Assembly (NCBI RefSeq): GCF_003459245.1
Contig: NZ_QRVG01000001.1
Coordinates: 1 to 64,000, forward strand
Reading direction: 5' to 3'
DNA length: 64,000 nucleotides
Source of the DNA: Collinsella sp. AF23-2
GTDB taxonomy: Bacteria > Actinomycetota > Coriobacteriia > Coriobacteriales > Coriobacteriaceae
Shown here: one piece after another, positions 48,442 to 58,095 of the stretch
Position numbering within the stretch: the first letter of the stretch is position 1
Layout: each line of letters starts with the position of its first letter
Notes under the pieces: generated by a model
What the model was told of the DNA's origin: nothing
Seen by the model: only the letters and a program-made list of their open reading frames with translations
The model's database searches: none
Program-made: the position numbers and the translations under genes

Positions 48442-48747
48442 ATGTATATCAAGAAGGGCGATAAGGTCCAGGTTCTCTCTGGTAAGGATCGCGGCAAGCA
48501 GGGCGTTATCCTGCGTGCTCTCCCCGCCGAGAACAAGGTCGTTGTCGAGGGCGTTTCGGTCGTCAAGAAGGCCGTCAAGCCCAACGCTGCCAACCAGCAG
48601 GGCGGCATCGTCTCGCAGGAGGCTCCCATCGACGCCTCCAACGTCAATCTCGTCTGCCCCGAGTGCGGTAAGGTTACCCGCGTCGGTCACGAGAAGGACG
48701 GCAAGAACAAGCTGCGCGTCTGCAAGAAGTGCGGCCACAAGTTCTAA
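48442..48747 (+). CDS. rplX: 50S ribosomal protein L24
   Basis: 101 residues. KOW motif [17 protein letters not shown], then [14 protein letters not shown] and CKKCGHKF, a four-cysteine zinc-binding C-terminus. Last gene of the S10 cluster here: a terminator follows, and rplE-rpsN-rpsH are not present. Confidence 0.96.
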
Positions 48748-48773
48748 GCTGCCCGCAACATCAAGTTGCTAGC

Positions 48774-48807
48774 AAAGGCCCGGATGCCACGGCACCCGGG
48801 CCTTTTT
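48774..48807 (+). terminator. Terminator after rplX
   Basis: AAAGGCCCGG/CCGGGCCTTTTT stem-loop. It ends the S10 cluster at a point where the spc genes normally continue. Confidence 0.85.
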
Positions 48808-48809
48808 CT

Positions 48810-49514
48810 ATCCCCACTCGATGACTTCGGTTCTGCCGTCCCGTCATTCCGGTTGCATCCAGTTTTCGGTGCCGTCTCGAATCGAGTGCCGCCAGGTGAC
48901 ACCCTGTCGCGTTTCGTCGGCTTCGGGGACAAAAGTCGGGACAACTCCAAAAACTATTTTCGAACTCAGGGCTTTGAGTTTTTGTTTTTGTCCCAAAGGG
49001 CGCGGCGGGATGCCTTTGGAGGCTCGATAGCGCCGAAAACGCCCGTTTTGAAACTTAAATGCCTTTTCGCGTGCAAGCCGCCAGCTGCAATAGGAAGTGA
49101 ATCAACGCAGGTGGCTTTCAAGCAGTTTGCAAAACTGCAGGTCGCAGGTCTTCATTGCCAGTAGGAGAAATGAGTAGTCTCAGGTGGCTTGCCCATGAGT
49201 TGACGAACGGGATTTGAGATTACGCTGACGTCCGGAAACGCTTCGAGCACGGCGTTACGTTTTTGGGGTTTGGGCGTAGCCCCTGCACCCGCGAGCGCGG
49301 GCCTTAAGCCCGCCGAGAGGGTGACGCGTCGAAAACGAAGGGGAAAGAGAGAAGGGGCCGTCCCTATCATTCAGGTTGCGACCGAAGAAGACAAGGAGAC
49401 CCCCTGAGCCTGAATGATGCCCCACAGACCGCGTCCGACCGAGCTCAAGCCGAGCTTTTCCTGACGTCCTCCTTCGCGGAGATGATGGCTGGATTGGCTA
49501 TGGATTGGCAACAC
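48810..49514. other. Non-coding or decayed DNA between rplX and the IS3 remnant
   Basis: No convincing gene on either strand. Contains a large inverted repeat with GGGACAAAA/TTTTTGTCCC arms (48926-48994), the palindrome GCAGTTTGCAAAACTGC near 49121-49137, and an inverted pair ATCATTCAGG (49366-49375)/CCTGAATGAT (49409-49418) that might mark an element end. It looks like a landing zone for mobile DNA. Confidence 0.45.
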
Positions 49515-49990
49515 TTATTTGGACGATTCCGGGAGGGACGGCCCCGCCTCCCTGAACTCGACCGGCGACATGAAGACCAGCGTCGAGTGGATCCTGAAGT
49601 TGTTGTACCAGTGCACGTAATCCAAGAGCTTGGCTCGGAGCTCGCGCGTCCCTCCTCGATCCTTCGGAGTGGCCGACGATTTCCCCGTTGCAGAGGTCGA
49701 CGAGCAGGCAGACGTAGTTCCACGACGCCCCGACGCGCACGCAGGCCAAGTCGCTGCATATATGGGTGTACGGCGCCCTGCCGCCGAAGCCGCGCGCGAC
49801 GACGTTCGACACGTCGGCCTCGTTGATCGCCCCGGGGTGCACCTTGAACCTTTTCCTGCCGTATGCGCCGGCCAGGCCGTTCTCCCTCATGATGCGGCAG
49901 ACGCGGCGCCGGCTGACGGTAACGCCCGACCTCCCGGGCGACGCCTTGATCTTGCGCGATCCGTTCCGGCCCTTGCTGGCGGCGTGCGCC
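49515..49990 (-). pseudogene. IS3-family transposase (orfB) remnant with internal deletion
   Basis: On the minus strand the N-terminal part reads SKGRNGSRKIKASPGRSG, VSRRRVCRIMRENGLAGAYG and DLACVRVGASWNYVCLLVDL, the IS3 orfB HTH_21/rve region with the first catalytic Asp. After NGEIVGHS the frame breaks, and the C-terminus resumes in another frame as ELRAKLLDYVHWYNNFRIHS and MSPVEFREAG. The middle, including the second Asp and the Glu of the DDE triad, is deleted, so the transposase is dead. No orfA is seen. The upstream end abuts an mtnN fragment. Confidence 0.8.
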
Positions 49991-50290
49991 GCCGCGGCCG
50001 CCGTCGCCCCCGACATTAAGGTCCTCAAGGGCCGCGTCGTCTCCGGCGACCAGTTTGTCTCGCCCGCGGAACAGAAGGAGCGAATCCTCGCGATCTTCGG
50101 CGACCTGTGCTGCGAGATGGAGGGCTGCACCATCGCGCAGGCCGCCTATCTCAACGGCGTGCCCCTCGTCGTCGTGCGCGCCATCAGCGACAAGCCCTGC
50201 GCCGAGGGCCGGGTCGTCGACTACAACACCTTCGAGAAGAAGGCCGCCTGCGACTGCGCCCGCATCGCCGCGCGCATGGTTAAGCTTTAG
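49991..50290 (+). pseudogene. mtnN: 3' fragment of 5'-methylthioadenosine/S-adenosylhomocysteine nucleosidase
   Basis: About 100 codons corresponding to the C-terminal half of MTA/SAH nucleosidase: LKGRVVSGDQFV, EMEGCTIAQAAYLNGVP, and VVRAISDKPC with the catalytic Asp. The N-terminal half is absent; the sequence runs directly into the IS3 remnant, so insertion or recombination has truncated it. The larger open frame starting at 49766 is a chance fusion through the antisense of the transposase. Confidence 0.8.
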
Positions 50291-50296
50291 GCCCTG

Positions 50297-50337
50297 CGCG
50301 CCGGGGCCCTTCTTTATGTTGGGACCCCGGCGCGCCG
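50297..50337. terminator. GC-rich hairpin after the mtnN fragment
   Basis: GCGCGCCGGGG/CCCCGGCGCGC arms with an 11-base-plus loop. Very strong stem, no T tract on the plus strand. Confidence 0.5.
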
Positions 50338-50517
50338 GGGCCCTTTCCAAAGCGAAGTGTCGAGCCGAAGTGTTGAGCGTCGGCCCTGAATGTTCAATGG
50401 CCGTTGTTTTCTGCCCCTCAAGTGGTGCACTTTTCCTCGGAGCTGTTGATTCCCCCACGCGCCCCCTTCCGTTCTCTGTTCTCCCCTTATACTCCTTGTA
50501 CGAGGAGGTAAGAAGTC

Positions 50518-53259
50518 ATGGACAAGACCACACAGGACAGCTTGGCAAAGAAACCCGTCGACATGAGGGACAGGATTCTCGAGCATCTCGAGGCCCTCAC
50601 CTCTGCCGTCTCGCTCGACGACCTTGCCCGTCTGTCCACCTCCGACATCGCCGAGACACTCATCATCTCCAGGAGCCTGGCGAGCCAGTACCTCAACGAC
50701 CTTGTTCGCGCCGGTCTTGTGGTTAAGGTGGCGGGCAGGCCTGTCCGTTATTTTCATCGCCGCGCGTTCCAGAAGCGTTTTCAGGTAAAGCTCTCTGCAA
50801 GCGAGTACGCCTCGCTCGCCGACCTCATCCAGGCGACGGGAATCGCCGATCACCGCGACTTCGCGCGTGCCGTGGGCTTCGACATGAGCCTCAGCTCCGT
50901 TGTCGAGCAGTGCAAGGCTGCGGTTCAGTACCCTCCGTTTGGCCTGCCCATCCTCTTGAGCGGCGGCGTGGGTGTCGGTAAGTCTTTCCTTTCTCGCCTT
51001 GTGTACGAGTACGGCAAGAACCAGGGCTTGCTGTCCCGCGACTCCTCCTATGTGCGCATCGACTGCGCCGGGGTCCCGGACGCCGCCTCGTTCAACGGGC
51101 TTCTTGACGAGTCGATCGCGAATGCGCGCGGGGGTGTGGTCTTTGTCAACGGCATCGAGGCACTCTCTCCCTCTGCGATGGAGCACTGCCTTGCGACGGC
51201 CCTCGGGCTCGATGCCTCCCAGGATGCGCCGCGCGCTCGCCTCGTTCTTTCGACGACGCTATCCGCCGATGACCTGAAGGTTTCCTCGGCCTACAGCAAA
51301 ATGCCCATCTGTGCCCGCGTCCCCTCGCTCAAGGAGCGGACCCCCGAGGAGCGCGAGGATCTCATCTTGAGCTTCCTGCGCAGCGAGGGGTGCCGAATCG
51401 GTTCTGATGTGAAGATCAGCCGCGGCGCATACCGTTGCCTCGTGAACGCGGACTTTTCCGATAACATCGCCGGCTTGCGCGCCTGCGTGACGAACTGCTG
51501 CGCCAAAGCGTTCCTCAATCGCGAGGGCGACTACGTCGTCGTTCGCCCGTATCTTCTTCCCAGCGGGCTCCTCTCCTCCGCGCAGATCGATCAACAGCCC
51601 GACGATGGCGTTCTGATCGACGCGTCTCTGGATGCCGCCGAGAGCACAGGGCCGGTCGAGCAGGCGCTCGATGCCCTGTGCTCCCTCGATGAGCGATTCT
51701 GCGCCGGGGAGCTCTCTGTCTCCGAGCTTGTCTCGCAAGCTGTCTCCGCTGTGCGCGGCGTTGAGGATCACTTGATCTTCGACCACGGCGTCGCCTCCTC
51801 GAGGTCGCGCGCCTTCGAGCGCGTCGTGGGCGCGGTCCTTGCCGACGCAGGCTCTTCTTATGGCATCGAGCTTTCGAGGAAGGTCGCTTTTCTACTGGCC
51901 CAGGAGATTTGCCTGCAGTTGTGGCCGGGTATCGGCCTGGCTAAGCGAAAGTCTGCCTGTGCGGAGCAAATCTCCCATCTCCTCGGTGCCGTGACCTCCG
52001 AATTGCCGTTTGCCTCGAGTGTCTCCGATCAGGTCGCCGCAGACGTGGAAGGGGCGCTGGGAATCTCGCTCGATCACTTCACGAAGACGCTTCTGACGCT
52101 GTGCGTCGCATCGGAGTCTCGCGATGCGAAGGCCCTTCGGACGCTCTGCGTCATCCTGTCCCACGGCTACTCAACGGCGACGAGCATCGCCGACGCGGCG
52201 AACCGTATGCTCGGCATGCATGTGTACGAGGCTGTCGACATGCCCTACGACCAGCAGCTGAAGGACATCGTCGGTCCGCTCCAGCGCCTCGTCGACCGCC
52301 ATTCCTACTGCACCGGGGTCGTGTTCCTCGTCGACATGGGCTCCTTGGAGGAGGCCTATAAGGCCCTCGAGAACGTTACCGACTCCACTATCGGCGTGGT
52401 GAACAACGTCTCTACCGGTCTTGCGCTCGAGATCGGGGTCGGGCTGCTCGGCGGCAAGTCCATCGCCGAGGTTCTTGGCGATGCGACCGCCGCGTGCGTG
52501 ACGCACTGCAAGGTGATCGAGCGCGTCAACCGTGAGGACGCCATCGTCTTCTGCTCCGAGTCCGGGGTCGACGCCGCGGAGAGGATACGCCAGCTCGTCT
52601 CGCAGAGCCTCCCGCGCACCATAGGCGCGCGCCTGCTCACGAGGCCCTTCAAGCAGCTCGTCGCGAACGGGTCGAACGACGCCGTTTTCTCCGAGCACCG
52701 CGTCTGCGCCGTCATCGGCACGGGAGACCCCGGGGTCGCCTCCGTCCCCTTCGTCGCCCTCGAGGACATCATGTCGACGGCGTCCGCCTCTAAGGTTGAT
52801 GCCGTGTTCGGCAGGTGGCTTGACGCTTCCGAGCTCTCTTCTTTCCACGAGAAGCTGCTCTCGAACATGACGCTGCAGAACGTCATCCGCTCCATCACCA
52901 TCCTCGACCCGGAGCGGCTATTCCATGAGATCGAGAGCGCCGTGCACGAGCTTCAGCGCAGGACAGGCGAGAAGATCGGCAGCAACGCCATCATTGGGCT
53001 CTACGTTCACCTCTGCTGTCTCGTCGAGCGCCTTGTTACCAGAAACCCCATTGAGACCTACGTTGGCCAGGACCGCTTCGAGGAGGAACGCGCCGATTTC
53101 ATCGAGTCCTTCAGGCAGAGCTTCTCGAGCATCTCGACGCGCTATCGCGTAGAGGTTCCCGTAAGCGAGATCGCATATGTCTTCGACTACATAAGCGTGA
53201 GCGCCGCCCCGGCGCGAGAAGAGCGCCTCGGCTCCTCGGACCTCCTGCTCGACGAGTGA
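50518..53259 (+). CDS. LevR/ManR-type PTS regulator with degenerate AAA+ domain
   Basis: 913 residues. Order: N-terminal winged helix (about 40-90), AAA+ domain with Walker A GGVGVGKS (149-156), PRD1, a ManEIIA-like domain (ILSHGYSTATSIADAANRML with its His), an EIIB-like segment (VIGTGDPGVASVPFVALEDI), and PRD2 with His in YVHLCCLVERL. Compared with LevR, the roughly 30 residues that carry the GAFTGA loop are missing (replaced by VPDAASFNGLLDESIANA). Walker B reads VVFVNGIEAL instead of the hydrophobic-DE form. It therefore should not activate sigma-54 polymerase. ATG 50518 follows GAGGAGG. It precedes the PTS genes it probably controls through PTS phosphorylation. Confidence 0.85.
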   Translation: MDKTTQDSLAKKPVDMRDRILEHLEALTSAVSLDDLARLSTSDIAETLIISRSLASQYLNDLVRAGLVVKVAGRPVRYFHRRAFQKRFQVKLSASEYASLADLIQATGIADHRDFARAVGFDMSLSSVVEQCKAAVQYPPFGLPILLSGGVGVGKSFLSRLVYEYGKNQGLLSRDSSYVRIDCAGVPDAASFNGLLDESIANARGGVVFVNGIEALSPSAMEHCLATALGLDASQDAPRARLVLSTTLSADDLKVSSAYSKMPICARVPSLKERTPEEREDLILSFLRSEGCRIGSDVKISRGAYRCLVNADFSDNIAGLRACVTNCCAKAFLNREGDYVVVRPYLLPSGLLSSAQIDQQPDDGVLIDASLDAAESTGPVEQALDALCSLDERFCAGELSVSELVSQAVSAVRGVEDHLIFDHGVASSRSRAFERVVGAVLADAGSSYGIELSRKVAFLLAQEICLQLWPGIGLAKRKSACAEQISHLLGAVTSELPFASSVSDQVAADVEGALGISLDHFTKTLLTLCVASESRDAKALRTLCVILSHGYSTATSIADAANRMLGMHVYEAVDMPYDQQLKDIVGPLQRLVDRHSYCTGVVFLVDMGSLEEAYKALENVTDSTIGVVNNVSTGLALEIGVGLLGGKSIAEVLGDATAACVTHCKVIERVNREDAIVFCSESGVDAAERIRQLVSQSLPRTIGARLLTRPFKQLVANGSNDAVFSEHRVCAVIGTGDPGVASVPFVALEDIMSTASASKVDAVFGRWLDASELSSFHEKLLSNMTLQNVIRSITILDPERLFHEIESAVHELQRRTGEKIGSNAIIGLYVHLCCLVERLVTRNPIETYVGQDRFEEERADFIESFRQSFSSISTRYRVEVPVSEIAYVFDYISVSAAPAREERLGSSDLLLDE

Positions 53260-53382: not shown

Positions 53383-53856
53383 ATGAGTGTTGTTATGGCA
53401 CGAATCGACAATCGCCTGCTTCACGGCATCATCGTGACGCAGTGGGCCCCGGTGTCGGGCGCGACCCGAGTCATGGTCATCGACGACAAGGTCGCCGGCG
53501 ACGAGGTCCTGAAGTCCACCATGAGGATGGCGCGCCCCGCGGGCATGGCCGTTTCGATCATCTCCGAGCAGACCGCGCTCAAGAACTTCGCCGCGGGCAA
53601 GTACGACCGCGAGAAGGTCTTCGTCATCGCCAAGGAGCCCGAGACGATGCTTCGCCTGGTCGAGTCGGGCGTCGAGCTCCCGTCGCTGGTCGTCGGCGGC
53701 TCGCTCGTCAAGGAGGACGGCATCCAGCTCACCCAGCGCGCCTACGCCTCCGCCGAGAACGTCCAGAGCTACAAGGCGCTCATCGCCCGTGGCGTCAAGG
53801 TGACGGCCCAGTTCGTGCCCGCCGACAAGCCCGTCTCCGTCGCAGACCTCATCTAA
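53383..53856 (+). CDS. PTS mannose/fructose/sorbose-family EIIB
   Basis: 157 residues, cytoplasmic. Phosphorylated His14 in RIDNRLLHGIIVTQW, the signature of ManX/LevE-type IIB. It transfers phosphate from EIIA to the incoming sugar. ATG 53383 with AGGAG upstream; the frame upstream to 53314 is non-homologous. First gene of the IIB-IIC-IID-IIA-GH172-ROK operon. Confidence 0.93.
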   Translation: MSVVMARIDNRLLHGIIVTQWAPVSGATRVMVIDDKVAGDEVLKSTMRMARPAGMAVSIISEQTALKNFAAGKYDREKVFVIAKEPETMLRLVESGVELPSLVVGGSLVKEDGIQLTQRAYASAENVQSYKALIARGVKVTAQFVPADKPVSVADLI

Positions 53857-53865
53857 GGGGGAAAT

Positions 53866-54651
53866 ATGGTCAACTTCACTATCCTGCAGGTCGTCCTTTT
53901 GACCCTGCTGGCCTTCATCAAGCACGTGGACTACTACGGCATCCCGATGATCTTCGTCAATTACGCCGTTTTCTGGGGCCTCATCACCGGAGTCGTCATG
54001 GGCGACTGGAAGACCGGCCTTGTCATCGGCGGCACCATTCAGCTCATGCAGCTCGGCGTCGCGGGCTTCGGCGGCTCCTCCATTCCCGACTACGGCACGA
54101 TGGCCATCATCGCCACCGCCTACGGCGTGACCCTGGGCTCCGACACGGGCCTCGCCATCGGCCTGCCGGTCGGCATGCTCGGCATCCAGCTCGACGTCGT
54201 CGCCAAGATCCTCAACGGCTTTGTCGTCGAGAAGTCCCAGAAGTTCTGCAACGAGGGTAAGTTCAATCAGATGAACGCCATCCTGTGGGTCTGCCCCGCG
54301 CTCTTCGGCCTGTGCGCCGCCCTGCCCGTCTTTGTCTCCGTGACGCTCGGCCAGCCCGCCGTCAACTGGCTCCTCGAGGTCATGCCCCAGTGGTTCCTCT
54401 CCGGCCTCACCCTCGCCGGCAAGATGCTCCCGGCCGTCGGTATCGCCATGCTGCTCCGCTACATGCCAACCGCCAAGTACTTCCAGTACCTGCTCGCCGG
54501 CTTCTTCCTCTCGGCCTTCCTGAACGTGCCCATCATCGGCGCCGCCATCGTCGGCGTTGCCCTCGCGATTGCGTTCTACCAGCGTGCCGAGAGGGACACC
54601 GAGCTCGCCGCCCACGCTTCCGCAGACGCCTTCATCGGAGAGGATGAGTAA
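53866..54651 (+). CDS. PTS mannose-family EIIC
   Basis: 261 residues, polytopic. Conserved GLITGVVMGDWKTGLVIGG, QLMQLGVAGFGGSSIPD and the glycine-rich loop GSDTGLAIGLPVG. Forms the sugar channel together with EIID. AGGGGGAAA precedes ATG 53866; 2 bases separate it from EIID. Confidence 0.93.
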   Translation: MVNFTILQVVLLTLLAFIKHVDYYGIPMIFVNYAVFWGLITGVVMGDWKTGLVIGGTIQLMQLGVAGFGGSSIPDYGTMAIIATAYGVTLGSDTGLAIGLPVGMLGIQLDVVAKILNGFVVEKSQKFCNEGKFNQMNAILWVCPALFGLCAALPVFVSVTLGQPAVNWLLEVMPQWFLSGLTLAGKMLPAVGIAMLLRYMPTAKYFQYLLAGFFLSAFLNVPIIGAAIVGVALAIAFYQRAERDTELAAHASADAFIGEDE

Positions 54652-54653
54652 CC

Positions 54654-55487
54654 ATGGAAAACGAGAACATCACCGCCGTCGCCGAGGGCAAGCCCTCCGG
54701 CTACAAGGTCACCAAGAAGGACCTGCGCAACGCGAACTGGCGCTGGCTCATGAGCGTGTGCACCTTCAACTACCAGACCCAGCAGGGCGCCTCAGTCGCC
54801 TACGCCCTCTCGCCGGTCCTGAGGAAGATCTACACGAACGACGAGGACTATAAGCAAGCGCTCAACAACCACTTCCGCTACTACAACACCCAGCCTTGGC
54901 TCGCCGCCATCATCCTTGGCGCCTGCGTGGCCATGGAGGAGCGCGACGGCCTAGCGGCGGCGGACGCCGTCCAAGACCTGAAGATCGGCACCATGGGACC
55001 GCTCGCCGGCGTCGGCGACTCCCTGCTCATGACCATGATCCCGACCATCATGGGCTCCATCGCCGCCTACATGGCCATCGAGGGCAACCCCGTGGGAGCC
55101 GGCATCTGGTTCGCGCTCATCCTGGCCATCTTCTGGGTCCGCATGCACGCCCTCGAGTTCGGCTACAAGCAGGGCGTGAAGCTCGTCACCGACTTCAGCG
55201 AGAAGCTTCCCAACCTCACTGCCGCCGCCTCCGTGCTCGGCCTCACCGTGGTCGGCTGCCTCATCGCCTCGGTCATCGGCGTCACCTGCCCGATTAGCTT
55301 CAGCTTCGGCGACGTCGCGATGGAGATTCAGCCGCTGCTCGACAAGATCCTGCCTGCCATGATCCCCGCCGCCATCACGGGAAGCGCGTATTACCTTCTT
55401 ACCAAGAAGAACGCGAGCATGACGGCCCTCATCCTCGTGGTGATCGTCCTCGCGATGGTCGCCTCCGCCGCCGGCATCCTCGCCTAG
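54654..55487 (+). CDS. PTS mannose-family EIID
   Basis: 277 residues. The N-terminal VTKKDLRNANWRWLMSVCTF and FNTQPW-like YYNTQPWLAAIILG are typical, as is GPLAGVGDSL. The C-terminus is membrane-embedded. Present only in mannose-family PTS permeases. ATG 54654 follows GATGAGTA. Confidence 0.93.
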   Translation: MENENITAVAEGKPSGYKVTKKDLRNANWRWLMSVCTFNYQTQQGASVAYALSPVLRKIYTNDEDYKQALNNHFRYYNTQPWLAAIILGACVAMEERDGLAAADAVQDLKIGTMGPLAGVGDSLLMTMIPTIMGSIAAYMAIEGNPVGAGIWFALILAIFWVRMHALEFGYKQGVKLVTDFSEKLPNLTAAASVLGLTVVGCLIASVIGVTCPISFSFGDVAMEIQPLLDKILPAMIPAAITGSAYYLLTKKNASMTALILVVIVLAMVASAAGILA

Positions 55488-55513
55488 CTTCGACCCAAGA
55501 GATTGGTGAATCA

Positions 55514-55912
55514 ATGAGAAAGATAGTTGTGGCGAGCCATTCCCTTCTCGCCCAGGGCTTCAAGGATACCCTCGAGTTCCTTACGGGTAAGGGCGACGCC
55601 GTCAACGCCGTGTGCGCCTACGTGAACGACAACGGCGAGGGGCTCGACGCGGCGGTCGAGGCGGCTCTTTCGGGCACTGACGAGGTCGTCGTCCTCACCG
55701 ACGCGTACGGCGGCAGCGTGAACCAGCGCTTTTCCCGCTTCGCCTCCGACCGGATCCACGTGATCGCGGGTGTCAACCTCCCGCTCGCCATGACGGTCGC
55801 GCTCGCGCGCCCCGACGAGAAACTCGACTTCGACGCCCTCGTCAACGAGGCGCGCCAGCAGATCATCTACGTGAACGGTGCCAGTTCCGCCGAGTGCGAC
55901 GACGACGAATAG
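55514..55912 (+). CDS. PTS mannose-family EIIA
   Basis: 132 residues. His9 in VVASHSLLAQG is the expected phosphorylation site; the usual Gly after His is Ser here. The second conserved loop VVVLTDAYGGSVNQRF corresponds to the vDxxGGSPfN segment. Separate EIIA placed after EIID, as in some levan and sorbose operons. ATG 55514 follows GATTGG (weak). An acidic tail AECDDDE closes the protein. Confidence 0.88.
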   Translation: MRKIVVASHSLLAQGFKDTLEFLTGKGDAVNAVCAYVNDNGEGLDAAVEAALSGTDEVVVLTDAYGGSVNQRFSRFASDRIHVIAGVNLPLAMTVALARPDEKLDFDALVNEARQQIIYVNGASSAECDDDE

Positions 55913-55924
55913 AGGAGGTCGACG

Positions 55925-57049
55925 ATGAGAGAGTTCCTTAAGGACGTGTGGATGCACGGCGGTGAGGAAAGCCGCGCCATCACCCCCGAGAACATCACGG
56001 GCGAGAAGGGCCGCGCCGCCATGTCGGCCAGCCACCTCGGCGTCGGCCGCAAGGGCTCGTGCTGCGTGCCCCTTGAGTCCGGCGAGACCATCACGCTCGC
56101 GGACATCGAGGGCCCCGGCATCATCCGCCACATCTGGATGACCGTCCCCGACAAGACCGCCGCCGGCAGCTTCGTCATGCGTGACCTCGTGCTGCGCTTC
56201 TACTGGGACGACGAGGAGACCCCCTCGGTCGAGTGCCCTGTCGGCGACTTCTTCTGCAACGGCTTCGGTGAGCGCGCCATCGTCAACTCGATGCCCATCT
56301 GCGTGAACCCGACGGGCGGCATGAACTGCTACTTCGAGATGCCCTTCAGGAAGCACGCCAAGGTCACGCTTACGAGCGAGCACCCCGGGTTCATTAAGTA
56401 CATCTTCTACACGTTCAACTACGCGCTCACCGACGTGCCGGACGACGCCATGTACTTCCACGCCCGCTTTAACCGCGAGCGCAGCACCCGCAGGGGCGTC
56501 GACTACACCGTGCTCGACGGCGTGCGCGGCAAGGGCTACTACGTCGGCACCTACATGGCCCTGTGCGCCCTGGAGCGCTATTGGTGGGGCGAGGGCGAGA
56601 TGAAGTTCTTCCTCGACGGCGACGAGGAGTTCCCCACGGTCACCTCGACGGGAGCCGAGGACTACTTCGGCGGTGCCTGGGCCTTCCTCGACAGGCCGCC
56701 CCACGCGCTGCCCGAGGCGCAGTGCTTCAACACGCTGTTCGCCGGCTACCCGTACCGCTCGACGCGCGACGCCACGCGCGACCGCTTCAGCGCGGGCAAG
56801 CCGAACCCGAATCCGATGCTCGCGACTAACGACGACGCGCTGCCCAGGCACGGCCTCTACAGGTGGCACCTTCCCGACCCGATCTCGTTCAAGGAGGACC
56901 TGCGCGTGACGTTCCAGGACCTCGGCAACGATGACATCAAGCTCTACGAGCGCGAGGACGACATCTCCACCGTCGCCTACTGGTACCAAAGCGAGCCGCA
57001 CGCCGTGCTCGCCCCGTTTGCCGCAAGGCAGGACCGCGTGCCCAGGTAG
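55925..57049 (+). CDS. GH172 (DUF2961) glycoside hydrolase
   Basis: 374 residues, no signal peptide, so cytoplasmic. DUF2961 fold: GPGIIRHIWMTV, DFFCNGFG, PFRKHAKVTL and TGAEDYFGGAW. GH172 members with known activity act on alpha-fructofuranosides and difructose dianhydrides or on D-arabinofuranosides. Glu224 (WWGEGE) and Glu245 (GAEDYF) are 21 residues apart, the spacing I recall for the catalytic pair of the Bifidobacterium enzyme. GAGGAGG precedes ATG 55925. It sits between a complete mannose-family PTS and a fructokinase, arguing for an intracellular fructoside, possibly phosphorylated, as substrate. Confidence 0.82.
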   Translation: MREFLKDVWMHGGEESRAITPENITGEKGRAAMSASHLGVGRKGSCCVPLESGETITLADIEGPGIIRHIWMTVPDKTAAGSFVMRDLVLRFYWDDEETPSVECPVGDFFCNGFGERAIVNSMPICVNPTGGMNCYFEMPFRKHAKVTLTSEHPGFIKYIFYTFNYALTDVPDDAMYFHARFNRERSTRRGVDYTVLDGVRGKGYYVGTYMALCALERYWWGEGEMKFFLDGDEEFPTVTSTGAEDYFGGAWAFLDRPPHALPEAQCFNTLFAGYPYRSTRDATRDRFSAGKPNPNPMLATNDDALPRHGLYRWHLPDPISFKEDLRVTFQDLGNDDIKLYEREDDISTVAYWYQSEPHAVLAPFAARQDRVPR

Positions 57050-57076
57050 GGTCGCCTCGAAACAAGCCAACGTTAT

Positions 57077-57113
57077 GGGCGCCCGCGGTTGACCATGACT
57101 GCGGGCGTCCCTT
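57077..57113 (+). terminator. Hairpin between GH172 and the fructokinase gene
   Basis: GGGCGCCCGC/GCGGGCGTCC stem with loop TTGACCATGA, followed by CTTTG. Probably a weak terminator or mRNA-stability hairpin that lowers expression of the kinase. Confidence 0.5.
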
Positions 57114-57128
57114 TGTAAGGAGGATCAC

Positions 57129-58013
57129 ATGAGCGAAAAGCAAATGAGGCTCGGCGCCCTCGAAGCCGGCGGGACCAAGATGGTCTGTGCCGTGGTGTCC
57201 GGCGACGGCGAGGTCCTCGACCGTATGGAGACCCCGACGCTTACGCCCGCCAAGACCGTCCCGCAGATGATCGAGTGGTTCACCGCCCGCGATGTGGACG
57301 CGTTGGGCATCGGCGCCTTCGGCCCGACCTGCGTCGACCCCAACGACGAGCGCTACGGCTCCATCCTCCAGACGCCCAAGCTCGCGTGGCGAGGCCATGG
57401 TCTTCGCGCCGCGTTCGCCGACGCCCTCGGGATTCCGGTGGCCTACGACACGGACGTGAACGTTGCCTGCCTCGGCGAAGTGGTCTTCGGCTGCTGCAAG
57501 GGGCTCGAGGACGCCGTCTACGTGACCATCGGCACCGGCGTGGGCGCGGGCGTCATGTGCGCGGGCAGACTCCTTCACGGCATGCTGCACCCCGAGGCCG
57601 GTCACATGCTGGTAAGGACCCGTCCCACCGAGGAGGGACGCTGCGTCTGCCCGAGCCACGCGAGCTGTCTCGAGGGGCTCGCCTCCGGCCCCGCCATCGC
57701 CGCGCGCTGGGGAAAGCCCGCGGCCGAGCTCGCGGACAACGATGAGGTGTGGGCGCTCGAGGGGGATTATCTGGGGCAGATGTGCGCGAACCTCGTGCTC
57801 ATGTACTCGCCTCGCCGCATCGTCCTCGGCGGCGGCGTGATGCACCAGGAGCAGCTCTACGGCATCGTCCGCAAGAAGACCCTCGAATATCTGGGTGGCT
57901 ACATCCAGACCGCCGAGCTTAAGGACATGGAGAGCTACATCTGCGCCCCGGGCTGCGGCGGCGACCAAGGAATCCTCGGCGCGGCCGAGCTGGCAAGAAG
58001 GGCGCTCGCGTAA
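57129..58013 (+). CDS. ROK-family fructokinase
   Basis: 294 residues. ATP-dependent hexokinase of the ScrK/GmuE fructokinase group: N-terminal LGALEAGGTKMVCAV, IGAFGP, catalytic Asp in YDTDVNVA, and the zinc site GHMLVRT with CVCPSHASCLEGLASGPA. It would turn free fructose into fructose 6-phosphate. AAGGAGGA precedes ATG 57129. Last gene of the island operon, closed by a strong terminator. It supports fructose as a product of the GH172 enzyme. Confidence 0.88.
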   Translation: MSEKQMRLGALEAGGTKMVCAVVSGDGEVLDRMETPTLTPAKTVPQMIEWFTARDVDALGIGAFGPTCVDPNDERYGSILQTPKLAWRGHGLRAAFADALGIPVAYDTDVNVACLGEVVFGCCKGLEDAVYVTIGTGVGAGVMCAGRLLHGMLHPEAGHMLVRTRPTEEGRCVCPSHASCLEGLASGPAIAARWGKPAAELADNDEVWALEGDYLGQMCANLVLMYSPRRIVLGGGVMHQEQLYGIVRKKTLEYLGGYIQTAELKDMESYICAPGCGGDQGILGAAELARRALA

Positions 58014-58045: not shown

Positions 58046-58095
58046 AAAAGACGAGCGCTTCTTGCCAATTGAGCGGCAAGAAGTGCTCGTCTTTT
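58046..58095. terminator. Strong bidirectional terminator after the fructokinase gene
   Basis: AAAAGACGAGCGCTTCTTGCC pairs almost perfectly with GGCAAGAAGTGCTCGTCTTTT around a short loop. Works for both the island operon and the DegV-like remnant on the other strand. Confidence 0.85.

Follow-up and report, generated by a model that had tools for sequence, protein, structure and literature searches.

Six genes, all on the plus strand, lie at 53383..58013 of the 64,000-nucleotide stretch of Collinsella sp. AF23-2 DNA analysed here (contig NZ_QRVG01000001.1, positions 1 to 64,000; hereafter the window). Pfam matches confirmed that, behind a regulator gene, they encode the EIIB, EIIC, EIID and EIIA subunits of a mannose-family phosphotransferase system (PTS), an enzyme of glycoside hydrolase family 172 (GH172) and a ROK-family sugar kinase, in that order (Table 1). 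An initial annotation had read these genes as one operon containing a GH172 protein without a signal peptide, and this was borne out: all six genes are in place, and the order of the first five recurs in eight loci outside Collinsella. The regulator, PTS, GH172 and kinase genes form one operon, which is ended by a strong terminator. All four PTS subunits exceed their Pfam cut-offs (for EIIB, the scan began at the second codon), the GH172 enzyme scores 280.6 bits with PF11175 against a cut-off of 27, and its N-terminus (MREFLKDVWMHGGEESR), judged by eye, has no signal peptide. Genes for a Gfo/Idh/MocA protein and a DeoR regulator follow downstream in the window, but L002 and L004, two loci with full flanks, lack them next to the operon, and these genes are therefore not counted as operon members.

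Table 1. Features of the PTS-GH172 operon; positions are those of the window.
Feature	Position	Strand	Evidence or remark
LevR/DagR-family PTS-controlled regulator	50518..53259	+	PRD and EIIA-man above cut-off; degenerate AAA+ domain
PTS EIIB, mannose/sorbose family	53383..53856	+	PF03830, E 9e-43
PTS EIIC, mannose/sorbose family	53866..54651	+	PF03609, E 9e-64
PTS EIID, mannose/sorbose family	54654..55487	+	PF03613, E 1e-84
PTS EIIA, mannose family	55514..55912	+	PF03610, E 2e-15
GH172 (DUF2961) enzyme, 374 amino acids	55925..57049	+	PF11175, E 1e-83
Ala253 codon of GH172	56681..56683	+	aligns with alphaFFase1 Gly299 and ExoMA1 Asn253
GH172 codons 285-297 (RDRFSAGKPNPNP), containing the loop insertion 288-296	56777..56815	+	alignment
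K292 codon of GH172	56798-56800	+	within the loop insertion
ROK sugar kinase, ScrK-like	57129..58013	+	PF00480, E 2e-55
Intrinsic terminator, 20-pair stem, 3' of the ROK gene	58047..58094	+	

The window is DNA of the Collinsella aerofaciens group. Its GH172 protein is 99.7-100% identical in the C. aerofaciens loci L002 and L004-L006, and likewise across 342 aligned residues in L008. For genome-wide searches we used Collinsella genomes related to that of the window; 7 of the 43 genomes of the genus taken as Collinsella carry the GH172 gene, and any PF11175 match is found in 8 of 296 Coriobacteriia genomes. The Collinsella GH172 copies that were compared are 99.7-100% identical to one another, and the operon occupies at least two sites: in the window and in L003, L005, L007, L142 and L143 it adjoins rplX, where the ribosomal operon is split, and it is sited elsewhere in L002, L004, L006, L008 and L144, where homology to the window ends at most ~0.5 kb upstream of the regulator. 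Thus, the operon has moved within the genus. At 48442-50518 of the window, the ribosomal protein operon is interrupted past rplX and followed by transposase-like and nucleosidase-like remnants, recognised by eye, and then by the regulator; the same junction is present in each of the other rplX-adjoining copies just named.

Outside Collinsella, the EIIB-EIIC-EIID-EIIA-GH172 order was found in Trichococcus (L009), Enterococcus canintestini (L010), Enterococcus raffinosus (L011), Vagococcus vulneris (L012), a Clostridia metagenome-assembled genome (MAG; L013), where the regulator is missing beside the operon, Lactobacillus apis (L015), a Lactobacillaceae genome (L135), and Liquorilactobacillus hordei from water kefir, in which the operon lies on a conjugative plasmid (L090). 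In these loci, the identity to the window is 64-76% for GH172 and for EIIC and EIID, 56-70% for EIIB and 40-55% for EIIA. The recurrence of the order in eight such loci indicates that the arrangement is more than chance. Further GH172 relatives named in the protein search include those of Lactobacillus, Frischella and Weissella bombi, several of which are bee associates. The GH172 relatives found among phage records are remote, at 25-44% identity, and a scan of viral contigs for further GH172 contexts found no relative.

A second lineage of PTS-linked GH172 genes is present in L014, L091, L136, L137, L168-L172, L180, L186 and L187 (L171 repeats L170), and its hosts comprise E. raffinosus megaplasmids, other Enterococcaceae, Lactobacillaceae, Bacilli and a Lachnospiraceae MAG. 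Its PTS is of another mannose-family type, with the order A-B-C-D and, in L091, subunits that are 24-32% identical to those of the window. The PTS genes are followed by a gene for a protein of ~700-770 residues and then by a GH172 gene whose product is 57-61% identical to that of the window, and a ScrK/ROK gene occurs in 9 of the 11 distinct loci (broken in L091). Taking both lineages together, a ROK/ScrK gene stands beside 14 of 20 loci (L015 included, L029 excluded), a count in which the L012 gene lies ~6 kb off, the L091 gene is in two reading frames and the L169 gene, a fragment only, is excluded. For the ~700-770-residue protein, no confident Pfam or PDB match was found, and 7 of the 12 aligned examples show a weak match to GH125 (best E 2e-5). 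The genes for these GH125-like proteins (L091:6911-8998, L014:7692-9998, L188:10601-12907 and relatives) lie beside GH172 and usually ScrK, with either a PTS or an ATP-binding cassette (ABC) transporter, and their products are a possible new glycosidase family. In L188, an ABC transporter, a GH125-like protein, ScrK and a GH172 lacking the loop described below are found together.

The position of the enzyme within GH172 was examined with a quick maximum-likelihood tree of 94 sequences with SH-aLRT support, after removal of six locus prefixes that represented fragments or duplicates. Eight labelled rows of the window's lineage fall within a set of 10 (support 97), and eight of the second lineage within another set of 10 (support 99). 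Both lineages and three Klebsiella/Frischella-type rows make up one 23-row set (support 95), with unsettled branching inside, and this set is nested in a 79-row set (support 93) of mostly ~370-residue GH172s with no characterised member. The alphaFFase1 enzyme, BACUNI_00161/DgGH172c and ExoMA1 all lie outside the 79-row set, ExoMA1 with an unsure placement because of its long branch. In the family tree that the initial annotation had called for, the enzyme thus does not group with the characterised D-arabinofuranosidases. Neighbouring genes were surveyed in 54 of the 66 loci of the wider subfamily (L016-L081) using a gene finder that favoured the longest frame and missed a GH172 gene overlapped by a longer antisense frame. 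ABC permeases lie near 32 of the 54 and GH32-like genes near 10, seven of these ten being encoded on the same strand and matching over at least 300 residues with 33-42% identity. Together, these neighbours indicate fructosides.

Alignment to alphaFFase1, whose active-site residues are described in PMC8605356, assigns E223 as acid/base and E245 as nucleophile in the window GH172, and W220, E223, E245, D246 and W252 correspond to W267, E270, E291, D292 and W298 of that enzyme. These five residues and Ala253 are invariant in all 19 PTS-lineage sequences, a set that does not include L029. A counterpart of alphaFFase1 Tyr187' at Y159 was considered and dropped; in the PTS set, this column holds H, S or Y. 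In ExoMA1, Asn253 is said, in PMC10509167, to exclude fructose and so give arabinose specificity. The window enzyme has Ala at this position and lacks this mark of the ExoMA1-type exo-alpha-D-arabinofuranosidases, and Ser is found there in 80% of the 54 other subfamily members, L029 among them. Ala253 allows fructose in the active site, without proving it. The residues of the difructose +1 site of alphaFFase1, E85 and K147, lie in stretches without a counterpart in the window GH172. With these residues missing, and no grouping with alphaFFase1 in the tree, the enzyme lacks the marks of the alphaFFase1-type difructose anhydride I (DFA I) synthases/hydrolases.

Both PTS lineages have an insertion in GH172, comprising residues 288-296 in the window (within RDRFSAGKPNPN) and two residues shorter in the second lineage, which is a gap in all 54 compared subfamily members outside these lineages. 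To relate this loop to genetic context, we surveyed 73 distinct GH172s (identity >45%, loci of at least 6 kb, frames >330 amino acids) for transporter genes within 5 kb, and found 20 linked to a PTS, 33 to an ABC permease, 2 to a symporter and 18 to none of these. A loop with Lys292 is present in 19 of the 20 PTS-linked proteins, in 0 of the 33 ABC-linked ones and in 0 of the 18 without an assigned transporter, one of which (L068) was read separately. Both symporter-linked proteins, from the Klebsiella plasmid locus L092 (LacY-type permease) and from L138 (MFS_2 transporter), have the loop with Asp instead. Nine Collinsella loci, L015 and 12 others were missed by the survey, which used the same gene finder. 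The PTS-linked L015 shows Lys in its loop; of the 12, all outside the PTS lineages, 10 lack the loop, the two remaining loci, L077 and L078, being not readable. Among loop-bearing proteins of unassigned context, ten picked for lacking Lys have D in eight cases and otherwise Q or E, nine have Lys (P0012, P0014, P0018, P0022, P0026, P0038, P0049, P0055 and P0060), and P0028 has a shortened loop. In two metagenomic proteins, P0005 and P0008, a first part equal or near-equal to the Collinsella GH172 is joined to a second part of the loop-less kind, which suggests chimeric assemblies or recombinants. No position other than 292 combines full conservation across the 19 PTS-lineage sequences with a different residue in both symporter-linked ones, and when positions shared by 18 or more of the 19 are considered, only 138 besides 292 changes charge. 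Lys292, in a loop placed by sequence alone, may be a phosphate-sensing lysine, and the phosphate pocket suggested in the initial annotation has thereby been narrowed to a concrete candidate, a PTS-specific lysine loop.

On balance, we lean slightly towards a pathway in which the PTS imports and phosphorylates an alpha-fructoside or dianhydride, GH172 acts as a phospho-alpha-fructofuranosidase, and the kinase captures the fructose; a phosphate-handling GH172 is the best reading, and has about an even chance of being right. As follows from the transporter class, the mannose-family PTS would import a fructose-containing disaccharide and phosphorylate it on entry. The cytosolic GH172 would then hydrolyse the alpha-D-fructofuranosyl bond, as its family, catalytic residues and Ala253 suggest, and the association of the Lys292 loop with PTS linkage points to this loop as an aid in recognising the phosphate. 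The predicted products are a hexose phosphate, which would enter glycolysis, and free fructose, which, judging from the recurrent ScrK linkage, would be phosphorylated by the ROK kinase. The substrate would be an open alpha-fructofuranosyl disaccharide, or a dianhydride of which GH172 opens both bonds, rather than DFA I, and the best-known candidates are caramel-type dianhydrides with alpha-fructofuranose. Dianhydrides are used as markers in honey and coffee, and this, together with the bee-associated hosts, is suggestive only. A broader proposal, which we make tentatively and would sooner doubt than accept, is a GH172 subfamily of phospho-alpha-fructofuranosidases consisting of the two PTS-tied lineages and acting on phosphates of caramel-type cyclic or alpha-linked fructose disaccharides. 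In such a subfamily, the loop lysine would read the phosphate, and the GH125-like enzyme of the second lineage could open the pyranosyl bond of mixed dianhydrides, for example alpha-fructofuranose-alpha-glucopyranose dianhydride.

Several observations weigh against the phospho-alpha-fructofuranosidase pathway. The window kinase scores 224.3 bits against the 400-bit cut-off of the ScrK equivalog model NF045550, so that the ScrK type assigned in the initial annotation is reduced to ScrK-like; among partner kinases elsewhere, those of L. hordei (421.7) and E. raffinosus (402.4) exceed the cut-off and that of Vagococcus is just under it (397.5). A complete ROK/ScrK gene is missing from the surroundings of six of the 20 PTS loci, GH32 genes (PF00251) are present in four of the seven Collinsella carriers, and the closest characterised enzyme by identity is a D-arabinofuranosidase, ExoMA1 (38%). 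In L029, a PTS lies within 5 kb of GH172, with other genes between, and the enzyme has neither the loop nor Ala253. The symporter-linked loop contexts number only two, and the switch between Lys and Asp may represent one or two evolutionary events, not many independent cases. Finally, residue 138, which is E in 18 of the 19 PTS-lineage sequences, is R in one symporter-linked protein and P in the other, and Lys292 could belong to a structural charge arrangement with it.

The last point leads to a version in which the pathway runs as proposed, except that Lys292 and its loop serve to form a salt bridge or to make contacts within an oligomer, and the phosphate is ignored by the enzyme. The charge change at 138 in some of the same sequences fits such a structural role, as does the presence of the loop, with Asp, in symporter-linked relatives, and GH172 members vary in quaternary structure via loops according to PMC10509167. 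Yet, Lys292 is kept in 19 of 19 sequences across two lineages whose PTSs differ as described above, and also where 138 is K (L090), thus 138 is no strict partner. We regard a purely structural loop as unlikely, though deserving real weight.

Known roles of mannose-family PTSs and LevR-type regulators include the use of sorbose, amino sugars and Amadori products. The substrate might accordingly contain another ketose or an amino sugar, as in a sorbose-, tagatose- or fructosamine-type furanoside, in which case the assignment of fructose would be wrong. The best NCBIfam match of EIIC is AgaW, of the N-acetylgalactosamine type (below its cut-off), and this and the low ScrK score of the kinase agree with such a sugar. 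However, ScrK and GH32 recur around the subfamily, and the solved structures closest to the kinase, 1xc3 and 3ohr, are named (putative) fructokinases, which makes another sugar improbable.

The initial annotation had named difructose anhydrides and inulobiose-like sugars as substrates, and this part of it has been weakened. In that case, the PTS would import DFA I or inulobiose, GH172 would convert DFA I phosphate into inulobiose phosphate by opening it, and the product would be split by a GH32 enzyme encoded elsewhere. The opening is performed on unphosphorylated DFA I by alphaFFase1, itself a GH172 enzyme (PMC8605356), the GH32 genes of the four Collinsella carriers would fit, and C. aerofaciens ATCC 25986 is reported in PMC9905522 as a levan user with three GH32 genes. 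However, the identity to alphaFFase1 is only 30%, E85 and K147 have no counterpart, and carriers would need a beta-fructosidase if inulobiose phosphate were the product. The other three Collinsella carriers (G001, G101 and G205; 99, 99 and 96% complete) gave no match to PF00251, the only beta-fructosidase profile used, and a gene may have been missed. Having no detectable GH32, these carriers indicate that the substrate should need no beta-fructosidase. GH32 was likewise not found in the neighbourhoods of L009-L013, L015 and L090, and L135 has only a divergent one ~8 kb from GH172. In Enterococcus, moreover, the DFA I type comes with an ABC transporter, GH32 and ScrK, and we consider DFA I as the substrate here quite improbable. 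Equally improbable is an ExoMA1-like alpha-D-arabinofuranosidase acting on a PTS-imported D-arabinofuranosyl disaccharide, with the ROK kinase acting on another sugar: ExoMA1 is the nearest characterised enzyme (E 4.5e-63) and, for all its unsure position, falls together with the window GH172 to one side of a branch with support 98, but its Asn253 (PMC10509167) is replaced by Ala in all 19 PTS-lineage sequences compared, the partner genes encode ScrK and, across the wider subfamily, GH32, and no D-arabinose isomerase or kinase was recognised, with no profile search for them and most neighbours of the 54 loci clustered only.

The description of the regulator as LevR-like in the initial annotation holds for its family, LevR/DagR, but the protein has lost the sigma54-contact loop. 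Its winged helix-turn-helix domain is about at the cut-off, and the best NCBIfam model, DagR, is far below. Walker A is kept, the GAFTGA loop is deleted, and the acidic residues of Walker B are gone. All 13 Bacillota operon regulators that were compared have a GA[FY]TGA loop. In 17 of 18 Bacillota loci (the exception is L013), a -24/-12 promoter that agrees with 9 or more of the 11 consensus letters lies ahead of the first PTS gene, in a scan that was compared with single-base shuffles; the Collinsella copies have no -24/-12 promoter before the operon, the best match being 6/11. A sigma54 gene (PF04552) was found in three of three Bacillota carriers tested and in none of seven Collinsella carriers, and, according to PMC3162934, sigma54 is absent from Actinobacteria. 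The window regulator is up to 47% identical to other Coriobacteriia LevR proteins and 22-29% identical to the Bacillota operon regulators. Since it is closer to the former and lacks the loop, control of the PTS-GH172 genes in Collinsella seems to have passed to a native type of regulator that works without sigma54.

LevR-family regulators occur in 28 of 296 Coriobacteriia genomes. In the set that was aligned (50518-53259 of the window and L189-L218), the GAFTGA loop is absent in all 28 readable proteins of 31, of which seven come from Collinsella operon copies besides that of the window (L205, L206 and L216 were excluded because of a wrong frame or a missing region), and the Walker B acids are absent in most. 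One branch of enhancer-binding proteins seems, judging from these sequences, to have turned sigma54-independent in Coriobacteriia. In four Lactobacillaceae loci, rpoN lies beside the PTS-GH172 operon (L135:7583-8866, L136:6054-7358, L137:2891-4153 and L180:10144-11424), as if the operon travelled with its own sigma factor.

Other transporters are found with GH172 as well. A true alphaFFase1 type is present in Enterococcaceae and Lactobacillaceae (L177:1300-9177, L178:5029-12909 and L179:6496-11799), with a GH172 of 448-450 amino acids, GH32 and an ABC or LacY-type transporter; ScrK is present in L177 and L178, and the L178 enzyme matches 7v1v at E 1e-201. These three loci are likely complete DFA I pathways. 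Another set, consisting of a LacI regulator, an ABC transporter, a GH172-like protein of 536-552 amino acids with a long N-terminal part, and ScrK, is found in L012:11231-17929 and L175:4837-11635, in the former (Vagococcus) directly downstream of the PTS-GH172 operon. The Klebsiella pneumoniae plasmid locus (L092:5343-11110) contains a LacI regulator, the LacY-type permease and the Asp292 GH172, with insertion sequence elements on either side. GH172 of this type was found on 42 Klebsiella plasmid records and one from Raoultella, and the GH172-LacY DNA has no near match among E. coli genomes. As ScrK/ROK genes stand beside GH172 in PTS, ABC and other loci, the association of fructokinase with GH172 recurs across several transporter types, in agreement with the partner that the initial annotation had proposed.

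Searches for GH172 or DUF2961 together with PTS, fructokinase or difructose topics returned no open-access paper recognisable as dealing with PTS-linked GH172; ABC-linked DFA III and D-arabinan systems are described in PMC11538131 and PMC10115798. The PTS-GH172 arrangement, conserved as it is, thus appears undescribed, as the initial annotation had supposed, and the interpretation given there is, overall, partly supported. If the phospho-alpha-fructofuranosidase pathway is true, a glycosidase family defined only recently gains a branch that is coupled to a PTS and specific for phosphate, and gut and fermented-food bacteria could have a new route to use heat-formed or alpha-linked fructose sugars. 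Lys292 versus Asp would then be a one-residue prediction separating phosphorylated from free substrates, and the same catabolic idea would exist in versions with a PTS, an ABC transporter or a symporter, some carried by conjugative plasmids.

The proposed pathway has the same logic as the sucrose PTS route, in which ScrB, a GH32 sucrose-6-phosphate hydrolase, frees fructose from the phosphorylated disaccharide and ScrK captures it; here the enzyme is of GH172 (alpha-fructofuranosides) instead of GH32 (beta), and the PTS is of the mannose family instead of the sucrose type. With LevR/LevDEFG of Bacillus subtilis it shares a LevR-family regulator over a mannose-family PTS. However, that system imports a monosaccharide, has no glycosidase for the PTS product, and depends on sigma54, whereas the sigma54-contact loop is lost in Collinsella. 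The alphaFFase1 enzyme of Bifidobacterium dentium, a DFA I synthase/hydrolase (PMC8605356), resembles the window GH172 in family, both catalytic glutamates, intracellular location and a small residue at the anomeric carbon (Gly299/Ala253), but it has E85 and K147, lacks the Lys292 loop, and is accompanied by an ABC transporter and GH32 instead of a PTS. ExoMA1, an exo-alpha-D-arabinofuranosidase (8ic8; PMC10509167), shares the short GH172 form and the same catalytic residues, but it differs at residue 253, works in an ABC-linked D-arabinan pathway, and lies outside the PTS clade in the tree.

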